Source: Actinomycetes bacterium | GTDB lineage: Bacteria > Actinomycetota > Actinomycetes > Nanopelagicales > Nanopelagicaceae | Length of the DNA stretch: 64,000 bases | Direction of reading: 5' to 3' | NCBI GenBank assembly: GCA_025360085.1 | Contig: JANYCW010000046.1 | Coordinates: 52,036-116,035, forward strand | Shown here: positions 3,277-58,829 of the stretch, piece after piece | Position numbering within the stretch: the stretch's first letter is position 1 | Layout of the letters: each line of letters opens with the position of its first letter | The notes under the pieces: model-generated | What the model saw: only the letters and a program-made list of their open reading frames with translations | Told to the model about the DNA's origin: nothing | The model's database searches: none | Made by a program: the position numbers and the translations under genes

Positions 3277-4122
3277 TTAGAGTCGGCAAGCATGGATATC
3301 TGTAACCAAAATTCCTCGAGCACCTACTGTCCATAGTTCATCCATGACTCGATTAGTGTCTTTGCGCAGGACCATGGCACGGACTGCAACCCAATCAATA
3401 TTTTGTAATGGTGAAATTGTTGGGGATTCTAATCCTGGCGTTATTGCGCACGCCAATTCGACATCAATTTTGGGAATGTCATAATCTAGAAGTACATATC
3501 GACGAGCGGTAACAACACCTTGTAAACGTCTAATAAGAATTTCAAGATCTTCGGGTCTAGTAAAATCCTTTCGAGAAATTACAATCGCCTCACTCGTTAA
3601 AATTGGATCTCCAAATATTTTTAATCCCGCTTGGCGTAGAGTATTTCCAGTGCTTACTACGTCAGCTATTAGATCTGCCACACCTAATCGAACACTGCTT
3701 TCAACTGCACCATCCAAACGCACTATATCGGCATGAATACTCAGATTTGTTAAATAGTTCGAAACCAAACCTGGGTATGCGGTAGCCACTCTTTTGCCCG
3801 CGATGTCAGCTAATGACCATTCATAATCAATCGGGGCTGCGAATCTAAAAGTCGAGCCACCAAAATCTAACGCAAGAAGTTCCTTGGCCGATGCTCCTGA
3901 ATCAATAAGCAGATCACGACCCGTTATACCGGCTTCAAGTTCGCCTGAACCTACATAAATTGCAATATCGCGTGGTCTTAGATAGTAAAATTCAACGCAA
4001 TTTTCAAGATCAACTAAAATTAAATCTCGGGTGTCACTTCGCTGCTTGTAACCTGCTTCTTGCAAAATTTCGATCGACGAGTCCGCCAAGGAGCCCTTAT
4101 TTGGAACTGCAATCCGTAACAT
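3277..4122 (-). CDS. hisG: ATP phosphoribosyltransferase
   Basis: MLRIAVPNKGSLADSSIEILQEAGY...; DLIADVVSTGNTLRQAGL motif. Confidence 0.95.
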   Translation of the reverse strand: MLRIAVPNKGSLADSSIEILQEAGYKQRSDTRDLILVDLENCVEFYYLRPRDIAIYVGSGELEAGITGRDLLIDSGASAKELLALDFGGSTFRFAAPIDYEWSLADIAGKRVATAYPGLVSNYLTNLSIHADIVRLDGAVESSVRLGVADLIADVVSTGNTLRQAGLKIFGDPILTSEAIVISRKDFTRPEDLEILIRRLQGVVTARRYVLLDYDIPKIDVELACAITPGLESPTISPLQNIDWVAVRAMVLRKDTNRVMDELWTVGARGILVTDIHACRL

Positions 4123-4137
4123 AGGTAACTCGATTCT

Positions 4138-4401
4138 TTAGAGATATTTGTAGATATCGTCGGGCTTTAACCCTCGAGCCAACATCATGGTCTGTATATG
4201 GTAAATCAATTGGCTAATCTCTTGGGCTAACGCCTCATTAGATTCATATTCGCCAGCAAGCCAGACCTCACCTGCTTCTTCTAAAATCTTCTTTCCGATG
4301 CTATGAACTCCAGCATCCACTGCGGCAACCGTGCCTGAACCCTCTGGGCGGCTCATCAGTTTTTCGACAAGCTCTAACCAGAGGGCGTCAAAGGATTTCA
4401 T
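4138..4401 (-). CDS. hisE: Phosphoribosyl-ATP pyrophosphatase
   Basis: [17 protein letters not shown]...[18 protein letters not shown]; start at internal ATG ([15 protein letters not shown]); adjacent to hisG. Confidence 0.92.
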
Positions 4402-4420: not shown

Positions 4421-5104
4421 TTAGTGCGGTGCTTGTATGGGATTTCTTTCACGTTTTGAAATACGCAACCACGATAGAAAACCCCAAATGACGAAGGGAA
4501 GGTAGATCGCGTATAAAGTACCGGTGGGATAGTAACCATTCTTAAAAGCAAAGGGAACGCCGACTAAGTCAACGGCAACCCAGACTAACCAGAATTCAAC
4601 ATAGCCACGGCTCATTCCGTATGTGGCAAGAGCTGTACCTGTAAAGATCCAAGTATCAACTAAAAGCCACGTACCACTTTCTCCTAATGCTTTAAAGATC
4701 TGCATTGAGAGTAAGTAAAAGACAACAATCAATGGGAGAAGAATTAGCCTCTCTTTTGAACTCGTCCATCTGGGGGAAACAGCAGGCTGTGATTTACCAT
4801 TGTTTCGTTGATGATGGGACCAACGAATCCAGCCATAGACGCTCACAACAATCAGTAAGAGATTTCGACTGGCCTGTCCATAGAAGTTGGCCGAGGGCTG
4901 ATTCGAATAGGCGAAGACTGCACCTAGAAAAACGGTGAATAAAAGTGCATCTCCAAGGATTCCGACGGGCCATGCCAACACTTTTCTACGGGCCCCTAAA
5001 ATGGCACTCGATAAACCCAGTGTTCCCCCGATAATTTCGCGTATTGCGATTGATTTACTGCCGAAGTTGATATTTGTTTCAAATAGCCATGTAATGATAT
5101 TCAT
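4421..5104 (-). CDS. ribM: PnuC-family transporter, probable riboflavin transporter (PnuX/RibM type)
   Basis: PnuC-like membrane protein ([24 protein letters not shown]..., [47 protein letters not shown]); directly downstream of an FMN riboswitch, which points to riboflavin rather than nicotinamide riboside. Confidence 0.8.
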
Positions 5105-5174
5105 AGTTGATCCTTCCTAGGATGAAAAGCTCCAGGAAGCAACAAAACACCCATGCGCGAATTGCACATGAGCA

Positions 5175-5296
5175 TTTGCTCCTTTATCCAGACTTTAACT
5201 GTCGGTTTTGGAATTTCACCAAATCAACCGACCACTGGATGTGATCGGGTCGCGGACTATACCGCCGGTTCGGAATTATCACCGACCCCCGGAACA
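5175..5296 (-). promoter_or_regulatory. FMN riboswitch (RFN element)
   Basis: Minus-strand sequence CCGGGGGTCGGTGATAATTCCGAACCGGCGGTATAGTCCGCGACCC...GGTCGGTTGATTTGGTGAAATTCCAAAACCGACAGTTAAAGTCTGGATAAAGGAG matches the conserved RFN core. Confidence 0.95.
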
Positions 5297-5304
5297 ACGT
5301 TTGC

Positions 5305-5970
5305 CTAGTCTGTCACAGATAGTGCGCAATTGCGTAATGAACGAATCATCTCGTTTGGATCCGATGAATTAAACACCGAACTACCTGCGACAAAGGTGTC
5401 GGCGCCAGCTTCGGCAGCTTGGGCAATGGTCTCAAGTGATATACCTCCGTCAACTTGCAGCCAAATGGGCCGAGCACCGATTATTAGTCGTGTTTGGCGA
5501 ACTTTATCCAACATTTCAAGCATAAATTTTTGTCCGCCAAAACCAGGTTCTACTGTCATAATCAAAAACATATCAACGTCATCAAGAAATCTTGCATAAC
5601 TAGCTATCTGCGTTCTGGGCTTTAAAGCAAGACCCGTACGTGCACCTTCACCATGAATTGCTTTTAAAGTTGACACAATATTTTTCGTTGCTTCCGCGTG
5701 AACAGTCACACTTGTCGCACCTGCTTGGGCATACGCCGGCGCAATATCATCTACATCGGCGACCATCAAATGTGCATCGACTCCGATTGGAGAGTTTTTG
5801 ATAATCTGGCTTGCTCGCTCGAAGTCAAAGGTAAAATTCGGTACAAAAATATTATCCATAACATCTAAATGTAGAAAATCAGAAGCATCGGCAATGAGGG
5901 CAATCTCTTGTTCCAAATTCGCCAAATCGGCATTTAGAATGCTCGGCGTGATGCGGATTTCACGTGACAT
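5305..5970 (-). CDS. rpe: Ribulose-phosphate 3-epimerase
   Basis: ITPSILNADLANLEQEI, LHLDVMDNIFVPNFTF, MTVEPGFGGQKF, LQVDGGIS. Confidence 0.95.
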   Translation of the reverse strand: MSREIRITPSILNADLANLEQEIALIADASDFLHLDVMDNIFVPNFTFDFERASQIIKNSPIGVDAHLMVADVDDIAPAYAQAGATSVTVHAEATKNIVSTLKAIHGEGARTGLALKPRTQIASYARFLDDVDMFLIMTVEPGFGGQKFMLEMLDKVRQTRLIIGARPIWLQVDGGISLETIAQAAEAGADTFVAGSSVFNSSDPNEMIRSLRNCALSVTD

Positions 5971-8810: not shown

Positions 8811-10697
8811 TTAGAGGGAATAAGGATCAATTCTCATTTCCAGACGCTCCTTCTTGGCAATACTTCGTCTACGTTGTAACTCAGCAAAGAAGCTTTTAAC
8901 CACAGTTGAATCTTTGTGGGGAAAATAGAGAACAATTTTCGAAAGACCTTTACCAATATTTGTAGGGCCATAAAATTTGGTCGTGTGTGCAAGACGGTTC
9001 TCAGCAATAGCTTTTCTTAGGCCAGTTGCAATCGAAGTGAATTCACTTTCAGTACCCACTAAAACCGCACTTGATACGTACGGTGGAAGCGGAACTTCCA
9101 ATCGTTCTGATAGTTCGCGTCTAATCATTGCACCAGGATTCCAACGAGAAATCGCAGAGACAATCGGATGAGAATCTTGAATACACAGGAGTACGAATCC
9201 ATCTGGATTTAGCATTCCAGAGGTTTCGAAAAATAACTCGCGCGCACGCTCTTGTGCACGTAAATCAGGGTGCGAAAAAAAATTTAAACCTTCCATTATG
9301 ACTACAGCGGCATAACCTGTTTCAACAGTTGGAACGGCGCCAGGTGTTGCTAAAACAAGTGCTGGACGATTTGAGACCTGGTCCTTAATAACACCTCCAA
9401 ATGAAAGTATTGTTGGAAAGTTTGGGAATGCCCGTGAAATTTCCTCGCCAGCGCGATCAATTCCTCGCGCTACAATGTACTGTCGATCTCGTTGGCACCA
9501 TTGACACTTCCAACCTTCATATCTTCTTGAACACAACACACAAAGTGGCGCCGCGTTTTTCGCGGTGACTACTAGACGACCACCGCAACTACACATTGCC
9601 ATATTTTTACAATGCGCACATAAGAGCGCATTACCGTAGCCCTTGCGCGGCATAAGAAATAGGACTGGACCATTCGAAAGCCCTTTTCTAATGTCATCAA
9701 AGATTCGACCTGGCAAAAGCGATCCATCTTCTGATGAAAATGCCCTCACATTTAGTCGATGGGGTTTGGTGATAAAGGTCAGCTCATTATTCTCAATCAA
9801 TAGAGAGAGATCAAGGCTTGGGACACATCCAGTGAAGATAACCGTCAGATTCTCCCTTTTACGGCGAAGAATGGCGATATCTCGAACATTCCAGCCAGGG
9901 CTACGAATTTCATAATGTTGATGTGAACTTTCTTTGAAAACGAGAATCGTTCGTAAATTTTTTACTGGTGTGAAAATCGCACCACGTGCTCCCACGACCA
10001 CCCAGTCTCCCTCTCTCATTGATTGCAAGTAGTTCGCATATCGCATTGCACGAGGAATTGAACTATCAAGTCGAAAATGCGCAACTCCGAGTTTGCTCAA
10101 AGCGGCACAAATCGCTGCAATATCACGAGTATTTGGAGCTATAACTAAAACTGAACCATGCTCGCGTTCTCGTGAAATAATTTCCGCCGCACTTGTGGCT
10201 GGACTTACAAAGGGAGCATCTGCTTGATATGCAAAACTCCGCTTCCCGTCATCGTTCATTTGGTTGAGAGAAGTTTCGGGAAAAATGTTGCGATCGACGC
10301 TGGCAACACGAGGAGGAATTGCACTTCGAAGTAATTGCCATGGGTTTGTTACCCAATGCTGGGCAATGGATTCTATTAAAGCTAAGGACTCGACCGTTGC
10401 TATCGGATGGGCAGAGATAACTCTACTTATTGCGCTTATGCCTCCGCTAACACTCGGCTTTTCCAGACGCTCTAAAACTATTGCTTCAACTTCTCTGCCA
10501 TTAAATGGAACTTGAATTCGAACCCCAGGAGCTATGAGATCCGAAAAGGATTCGGGTACGCCGTAATCATAGGATGCGTCTAAATGCGATATCCCAGAAT
10601 CCACCCATGCACGCGCATAGGGTAGGAGCTCTGCCAAACGCTCAACTGGCCTTGGAATTACCTCGGCCTTTAAGTGAAATGGGCGCGTTGAAACCAC
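8811..10697 (-). CDS. priA: PriA-like primosomal protein N' (degenerate helicase motifs)
   Basis: PriA N-terminal domain (VRIQVPFNGREVEAIVLE), Zn-binding cysteines (CAHCKNMAMCSCGG...CVLCSRRYEGWKCQWCQ); position after metK. Confidence 0.88.
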   Translation of the reverse strand: MVSTRPFHLKAEVIPRPVERLAELLPYARAWVDSGISHLDASYDYGVPESFSDLIAPGVRIQVPFNGREVEAIVLERLEKPSVSGGISAISRVISAHPIATVESLALIESIAQHWVTNPWQLLRSAIPPRVASVDRNIFPETSLNQMNDDGKRSFAYQADAPFVSPATSAAEIISREREHGSVLVIAPNTRDIAAICAALSKLGVAHFRLDSSIPRAMRYANYLQSMREGDWVVVGARGAIFTPVKNLRTILVFKESSHQHYEIRSPGWNVRDIAILRRKRENLTVIFTGCVPSLDLSLLIENNELTFITKPHRLNVRAFSSEDGSLLPGRIFDDIRKGLSNGPVLFLMPRKGYGNALLCAHCKNMAMCSCGGRLVVTAKNAAPLCVLCSRRYEGWKCQWCQRDRQYIVARGIDRAGEEISRAFPNFPTILSFGGVIKDQVSNRPALVLATPGAVPTVETGYAAVVIMEGLNFFSHPDLRAQERARELFFETSGMLNPDGFVLLCIQDSHPIVSAISRWNPGAMIRRELSERLEVPLPPYVSSAVLVGTESEFTSIATGLRKAIAENRLAHTTKFYGPTNIGKGLSKIVLYFPHKDSTVVKSFFAELQRRRSIAKKERLEMRIDPYSL

Positions 10698-10700
10698 GCT

Positions 10701-11891
10701 CTACTTAATTGCGCTCTGCAAGGCATCAACTCGATCTGTCCGTTCCCACGTGAACTCTGTGAGTTCGCGTCCAAAGTGGCCATAAGAACTTGTTAGTGAA
10801 TAAATAGGTCTCAAAAGCTCCAAATCTCGGATGATTGCAGCTGGTCGTAAATCGAATACCGAAAGAACTGCATCTTGAATTTTAGAGACTGGAACGTTTT
10901 CAGTACCAAAAGTTTCTACAAATAAACCCACTGGCTGCGCTTTTCCGATGGCATAAGCTATCTGGACCTCGCATCGCTTCGCCAAACCTGCAGCGACGAC
11001 GTTTTTAGCTACCCAGCGCATCGCATAGGCCGCAGATCTATCTACTTTCGAAGGATCCTTACCGCTAAATGCACCTCCACCATGTCGGGCCATGCCACCA
11101 TAAGTATCAACAATAATCTTTCGTCCCGTTAAACCGGCATCGCCCATGGGTCCACCGATAACGAAACGCCCCGTTGGATTAATGAGAATCTTCAAATCTG
11201 GGCGAGGAAGATCTATTTGAGAAAGGATTGGCGCAATGACGTGCTCAATTACCTCTGGCGTCAACGTTTTTTCCACATCAACATCCTGCGAGTGTTGGCT
11301 AGAAATGACGATGGTATTGAGTGCGATAGCGCGATTTCCTTCGTATTCAATGGTTACTTGTGTTTTTCCATCGGGGCGCAGATATGCAAGTGCGCCGGAT
11401 TTACGTACCTTCGATAGTTGCTGGGCAAGGGCGTGGGCCAAATGAATGGGAAGTGGCATCAACTCTTTCGTATCATCGCAGGCATAACCAAACATTAATC
11501 CCTGGTCGCCTGCTCCTTGTAGATCTAAAGGATCGGCTCCTGCTGCAACTCGATGCTCATAAGCATCATCGACTCCTTGCGCAATATCCTGAGACTGAGC
11601 CCCAATTGAAATCGATACGCCGCAACTATTTCCATCAAAGCCTTTTTCGGATGAGTCATATCCAATCTTTAAAACCGTATCACGTACGATTGTATTGACA
11701 TCGGCATATCCATTTGTTGTTACTTCGCCGGCCACATGAACTTGACCTGTTGTTATGAGGGTCTCTATGGCCACTCGACTCTTAATATCTTGGCTCAAGA
11801 GTGAATCGAGAACGGCATCGGAGATTGCATCGGCAATCTTGTCAGGATGTCCTTCAGTAACGGACTCTGAGGTAAACAGGCGCTTTGACAT
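10701..11891 (-). CDS. metK: S-adenosylmethionine synthetase
   Basis: [55 protein letters not shown]. Confidence 0.97.
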
Positions 11892-58167: not shown

Positions 58168-58240
58168 GCGGACGTAGCGCAGTTGGTAGCGCGGAACCTT
58201 GCCAAGGTTCAGGTCGCCGGTTCGAACCCGGTCGTCCGCT
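58168..58240 (+). tRNA. tRNA-Gly(GCC)
   Basis: Cloverleaf gcggacg...cgtccgc+t; anticodon arm gaacc-TTGCCAA-ggttc; GGTTCGAACC T-arm. Confidence 0.97.
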
Positions 58241-58270
58241 CTCCATCAGTCGCCTCGGCGATTTGTTACT

Positions 58271-58341
58271 GGTCCGGTGGCCGAGAGGCGAGGCAAGGGA
58301 CTGCAAATCCCTCTACACGGGTTCAAATCCCGTCCGGACCT
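58271..58341 (+). tRNA. tRNA-Cys(GCA)
   Basis: Acceptor ggtccgg/ccggacc; anticodon arm aggga-CTGCAAA-tccct; GGGTTCAAATCCC T-arm; CCA follows the discriminator. Confidence 0.97.
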
Positions 58342-58370
58342 CCATGTGTACGTGAGGAGCTTGTGGAAGG

Positions 58371-58721
58371 GTGAGCGCCATGAGTGAATCGTCGCGGCCT
58401 TGGGGGCGTTATGAAATTCTCCATGAATCCGAGGCATATAAAGTCAAATGCATCTGGGTCTATCCGCACAAACGCCTTTCCTACCAACGCCACGAAAAGC
58501 GTGCAGAGCACTGGTTTTTGGTTGCTGGAACGGCGAAGGTAACGCTTAACGGTGTTCAATCAAATGTGCGCGCCGGCGATAGCTTAGATATTGCGATTGG
58601 TGATTTACACCGCATCGAAAATATTGGCCACAATGACGTAATCTTCATTGAAGTTCAAACTGGTACATACTTTGGTGAAGATGATATCGAACGAATCGAG
58701 GATGATTTCGGGCGCGAATAA
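58371..58721 (+). CDS. Cupin-domain protein, mannose-6-phosphate isomerase type II-like
   Basis: RPWGRYEILHESEAYKVKCIWVYPHKRLSYQRHEKRAEHWFLVAGTAKVTLNG...DLHRIENIG matches the ManC C-terminal cupin; alternative ATG start at 58380. Confidence 0.88.
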   Translation: MSAMSESSRPWGRYEILHESEAYKVKCIWVYPHKRLSYQRHEKRAEHWFLVAGTAKVTLNGVQSNVRAGDSLDIAIGDLHRIENIGHNDVIFIEVQTGTYFGEDDIERIEDDFGRE

Positions 58722-58738
58722 GCGTGAAATTCGTAAGG

Positions 58739-58744
58739 TATAAT
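58739..58744 (+). promoter_or_regulatory. Candidate -10 element (TATAAT) upstream of tRNA-Val
   Basis: Perfect TATAAT 13 nt before the tRNA 5' end; no clear -35 box. Confidence 0.4.
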
Positions 58745-58757
58745 TTTGCAATAGCAC

Positions 58758-58829
58758 GGATCGTTGGCTCAGCGGTAGAGCACCACATTGACATTGTGGG
58801 GGTCACTGGTTCGATCCCAGTACGGTCCA
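58758..58829 (+). tRNA. tRNA-Val(GAC)
   Basis: Acceptor ggatcgt/acggtcc; anticodon arm ccaca-TTGACAT-tgtgg; GGTTCGATCCC T-arm. Confidence 0.96.

Follow-up and report, generated by a model that had tools for sequence, protein, structure and literature searches.

The PnuC-family transporters RibM and PnuX of Streptomyces davawensis and Corynebacterium glutamicum are controlled by FMN riboswitches (PMC3239331, PMC4418817), and the criteria given for proteins of this type are FMN-riboswitch control or synteny with rib genes and at least 38% identity to the S. davawensis RibM (PMC4418817). The closest described system is that of acI-A4 strain IMCC26103 (accession no. CP015604), which has no rib operon and carries an FMN riboswitch only before its second pnuC-like gene, identified as pnuX; RibF is retained in this strain, and the other pnuC was assigned to PnuT (Kang et al. 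2017, PMC5301498).

Here we describe a locus in a 64,000-nucleotide stretch of contig JANYCW010000046.1 (the window), from the genome of a freshwater acI-type actinobacterium. The locus shares PnuC family membership, riboswitch control, and the actinobacterial rib/his neighborhood with the RibM/PnuX systems of S. davawensis and C. glutamicum, and it resembles IMCC26103 in having a lone riboswitch and importer without the enzymes, with transporters that are 72% identical. The pnuX of IMCC26103, however, has neither rpe nor hisE within 6 kb, whereas the window retains the rpe-hisE site, and the IMCC26103 aptamer lies 9 nt from the start of the match, compared to a platform of 67 to 68 nt in the window. 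In large-genome relatives within the class (L112 and L113), ribM is part of a complete rib operon, while the ribM of the window stands alone and the enzymes are absent. The nicotinamide riboside transporter PnuC (PDB 4QTN; E. coli PnuC) has a fold in common with the window protein but only 20 to 26% identity to it and a separate branch in the tree. The arrangement of riboswitch and importer is therefore already known from IMCC26103, and the route by which it arose, as traced in related genomes, is what we add here; a literature search, with most subscription journals outside its coverage, recovered no account of operon collapse in acI or of an association between the riboswitch and the enzymes. 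We consider it very probable that the window comes from an acI bacterium auxotrophic for riboflavin and encodes a RibM/PnuX-type riboflavin importer controlled by an FMN riboswitch of its own, and that the locus is a remnant of a rib cluster at its original site, as judged from sequence comparisons.

FMN riboswitch and locus organization

A search with Rfam model RF00050 identified an FMN riboswitch aptamer (RFN element) at positions 5173 to 5300 on the minus strand; the match covers the full model (positions 1 to 138) with a score of 95.6 bits (gathering threshold, 66.2; E value, 8.5e-21). The 5' end of the aptamer lies 4 nt past the stop codon of rpe (positions 5305 to 5970, minus strand; TIGR01163, 227.2 bits), and its 3' end is 68 nt from the ATG of a 227-amino-acid open reading frame (ORF), ribM/pnuX (positions 4421 to 5104, minus strand), that matches the PnuC family model PF04973 with 146.5 bits against a cutoff of 27.3. 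Next on the same strand are the phosphoribosyl-ATP diphosphatase gene hisE (positions 4138 to 4401; NF001610, 137.5 bits), probably starting at the ATG at 4401, and hisG (positions 3277 to 4122; TIGR00070, 169 bits), which by synteny are flanks of an ancestral rib cluster. An initial reading of the window from its sequence alone had proposed a complete RFN element ahead of a PnuC-family gene, with hisE-hisG behind it and rpe upstream, and had called for the RF00050 search; the family models bear out each of these assignments. Its range for the feature, positions 4421 to 5296, was right in substance and left out 4 nt at the 5' end of the aptamer. This aptamer is the only RF00050 match in the whole genome (1.63 Mb in 61 contigs), and it is a predicted FMN-responsive switch for the importer gene. 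Elsewhere in the window, three consecutive tRNA genes lie on the plus strand at positions 58168 to 58829.

Identity of the transporter

The 227-amino-acid protein is 36 to 50% identical to RibM from class-level relatives, in most cases encoded inside a rib cluster (37 to 38% for two relatives with genomes of 8 to 9 Mb and up to 50% for the others), compared to 26% for E. coli PnuC and 27% for the second PF04973 protein of its own genome. In a 98-row tree, made with a quick search and containing several long branches, the acI PnuX proteins form one clade (support, 98) and fall together with RibM on one side of a branch (support, 97), opposite E. coli PnuC, an additional PnuC from a large-genome relative, and the other type found in the genus. 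The protein thus does not group by sequence with nicotinamide riboside PnuC, and it combines riboswitch control with an rpe/hisE-hisG setting shared with the rib clusters of outgroups. A profile search of PDB sequences with the transporter gave no match at an E value of 0.001, so that a fold search was required; with an AlphaFold model (pLDDT, 88), the best PDB fold was PnuC 4QTN (Foldseek E value, 3.5e-6; probability, 1.00).

This fold, together with a match to the NCBIfam nicotinamide riboside transporter model TIGR01528 (56.5 bits; cutoff, 42.45), would be in keeping with an importer for another vitamin, nicotinamide riboside or thiamine, that has merely inherited a flavin switch. We regard that as very improbable: the protein groups with the RibM of rib operons and has its highest identities there, and its gene lies behind an FMN riboswitch in a genome that has no riboflavin enzymes and no other gene with such a switch. 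The TIGR01528 label, although above its cutoff, is not decisive for the substrate by itself. The comparison of RibM and PnuC phylogeny proposed at the outset places the transporter with RibM and away from PnuC and PnuT, and the protein is very probably of the RibM/PnuX type, a predicted riboflavin importer distinct from both.

Two further relatives were noted. The second PnuC-like gene of the genome (L101:6224-6879; about 10223 to 10878 on G000:C49) has an upstream TPP-riboswitch match of 28.7 bits, below the gathering threshold of 54.3, and it probably encodes a PnuT thiamine transporter with a diverged TPP riboswitch; given this weak match, the assignment agrees with that of Kang et al. A full-length PnuX relative with 44.7% identity is present in a "Bacteriophage sp." record (MT835496.1:55490-56170), where bacterial carry-over seems likelier than a phage gene.

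Absence of riboflavin biosynthesis enzymes

Protein family searches of the whole genome found no lumazine synthase (RibH; PF00885), no 3,4-dihydroxybutanone phosphate (DHBP) synthase (RibB or RibBA; PF00926), no riboflavin synthase (RibE; PF00677), and no GTP cyclohydrolase II (RibA; PF00925). The one PF01872 match is a stand-alone RibD_C-like ORF of 163 amino acids, too short to include a deaminase domain, and a two-domain RibD was not found in the genome. RibF is retained, as its FAD synthetase domain (PF06574) was recovered. As a control, among the 26 good genomes of the genus, 23 matched PF00926 and 23 matched PF00677, which demonstrates that the searches work and that the absence of the enzymes is specific to the lineage.

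Since the assembly is a draft of 61 contigs, a rib operon could in principle lie in a gap and the auxotrophy be only apparent. This is extremely unlikely, however: the genome is 99.36% complete, five enzyme families are absent together although RibF was found, and RibBA is also missing in 51 of the 52 genomes that have the riboswitch before the importer. The suggestion of riboflavin auxotrophy made from the window alone is supported by this genome-wide search, which found no pathway elsewhere, and the host is a predicted riboflavin auxotroph.

Origin of the locus

Gene order in related genomes points to an ancestral rib cluster between rpe and hisE. The class relative L113 has the order ribD-ribE-ribM-ribBA-ribH-hisE-hisG, with similar orders in others, and in one relative (L016) rpe is immediately upstream of ribM. 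The groundwater MAG nzgw101 (L189), whose transporter is 55% identical to that of the window, has the order rpe-RFN-ribD-ribE-ribBA-ribH-ribM-hisE-hisG-serB-abc-ung, and the window has the same flanks minus the four enzyme genes. In a close relative of this MAG (L191) the order is rpe-RFN-ribM-hisE, and RibBA was not found in that genome. The two align with 84% DNA identity up to the end of the aptamer and with 82% from the ribM start codon onward, and they differ in length by 3317 bp, from the start of ribD to the start of ribM; without this segment, ribM has taken the place of ribD behind the switch. In sequence type, the riboswitch of L189 also matches the importer riboswitch of the window. 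These comparisons suggest that an ancestral cluster, rpe-[FMN riboswitch]-ribDE-BA-H-ribM-hisE-hisG, once occupied this site and that the window locus is its remnant, still in the original position.

Within the genus, genomes that encode rib enzymes carry them as RFN-ribDE-BA-H between nrdJ and dinG rather than between rpe and hisE, and in those that lack ribM, rpe is followed directly by hisE. A foreign origin of this second operon was rejected: in a concatenated RibE-RibBA-RibH tree, all 17 acI operons form one clade (support, 99), with the rpe-site cluster of L189 as its sister (support, 100), indicating that the operon moved within the lineage without import. Riboswitches of both kinds are present in the genus, together in one genome (G072), so that the importer riboswitch might be a recent copy from the nrdJ-dinG operon instead of being inherited at its site. 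A copy of this kind is decidedly unlikely, as the two belong to different sequence types (CAGTTA..TCTGGATAAAGG before the importer and CGGTTA..TCCGGATGAGAG before the nrdJ-dinG operon) and the importer type is the one found in the rpe-site cluster of L189. Inheritance at the rpe-hisE site thus remains our preferred reading, and the enzyme genes would have left that cluster for nrdJ-dinG in some lineages and been lost outright in others. The proposal that the biosynthetic genes were lost at this locus accordingly holds over deeper time, as L189 has ribDE-BA-H between rpe and hisE, but the most recent enzyme loss probably occurred at nrdJ-dinG, where the rib-bearing genomes of the genus have their operon.

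Other arrangements were also noted. In three genomes (L142:1557-2216, L145:6001-6696, and L149:1658-2353), a pnuX without a riboswitch adjoins nrdJ and/or dinG, and one of the three retains RibBA elsewhere. At L209 and L197 (G015:C1:666371-668325), two copies of rpe separated by about 1.3 kb enclose a hisE-hisG stretch, which looks like a tandem duplication in a one-contig genome.

Expression platform and mode of control

The expression platform (positions 5105 to 5172, minus strand), delimited by sequence and folding, follows the aptamer with a hairpin at 5177-5145, an anti-Shine-Dalgarno (anti-SD) segment, UUGCUUCCU, at 5142-5134, and the SD, AGGAAGG, at 5118-5112. The pairing of this SD with an upstream GCTTCCT had been recognized in the sequence-only reading; both segments are present, and CTTCCT within 5142-5134 is complementary to the SD (in RNA, CUUCCU pairs with AGGAAG). 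The 3' strand of P1, GGAGCAA, has two possible partners, its 5' strand, UUGUUCC, or the anti-SD, UUGCUUCC. When the whole leader of the window is folded, the alternative structure is best (-79.8 kcal/mol) and leaves the SD mostly unpaired; the fold with P1 and the sequestor is 4.1 kcal/mol worse, a difference that binding of the ligand might plausibly reverse. Across 42 related leaders, with the P1 strand occupied, mean SD accessibility was 0.12, compared to 0.30 in shuffled sequences, supporting the SD-hiding half of the model. Folding the segment 3' of the aptamer alone did not release the SD (mean accessibility of 0.16 versus 0.12), and the antisequestor consequently rests mainly on the whole-leader fold of the window. 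The pairing between SD and anti-SD recurs in 23 aligned relatives; covariation in the hairpin is weak, with a double change in 1 of 8 pairs. The platforms of rpe-site importers are mostly 58 to 100 nt long, and many of these contain an anti-SD able to pair with the SD, while in a second importer group, which includes IMCC26103, the aptamer is just 9 to 10 nt from the gene.

The hairpin at 5177-5145 was classed as terminator-like, which would be expected if control were by transcription termination rather than translation. We consider termination unlikely and do not prefer a terminator at this position: terminator-like sites are near chance level (4, versus 2.0 ± 1.4 in shuffled sequences), the U-tract is poor, the anti-SD/SD pairing is present across the 23 relatives, and termination would also silence hisE-hisG if both are read through from rpe. 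Control is instead probably translational, via hiding of the SD. An upstream ORF at 5175-5101, with an ATGA overlap with the ribM start, was rejected, as it is not conserved in relatives.

In the proposed mechanism, high cellular FMN would lead the aptamer to close the P1 helix, so that the anti-SD would be available to mask the SD and block translation of the importer. At low FMN, the 3' strand of P1 would pair with the anti-SD and free the SD, such that riboflavin would be imported and converted to FMN and FAD by RibF.

Riboswitch and enzymes across genomes

The importer riboswitch and RibBA were scored in 69 genomes, including drafts in which absences may be gaps; 51 have the riboswitch without RibBA, 13 have RibBA without the riboswitch, 4 have neither, and 1 (G072) has both. 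The association is strong when kinship is ignored (Fisher P value, 8e-10). Well-supported branches provide only 5 independent pairs, which are either tied or point the same way, and a sign test is not significant (median P value, 0.0625); by tree contrasts the association is therefore suggestive. The G072 riboswitch has the lowest score of the full-length matches above the cutoff in the genus (85.5 bits), and its changes fall on positions that are nearly invariant elsewhere. On balance, we lean slightly toward the view that in acI the importer riboswitch was kept only in genomes that do not make riboflavin, while genomes retaining the enzymes lost either the importer or its switch, several times independently. 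If true, a switch before the importer predicts auxotrophy.

Implications

The L189/L191 pair indicates that a biosynthetic operon can be reduced to its last gene with the riboswitch retained. The resulting pair of switch and importer is usable as a sequence marker for predicted riboflavin auxotrophy. A dependence on riboflavin among some of the commonest lake bacteria, as predicted here, would bear on cross-feeding in freshwater plankton and on the culturing of these organisms.
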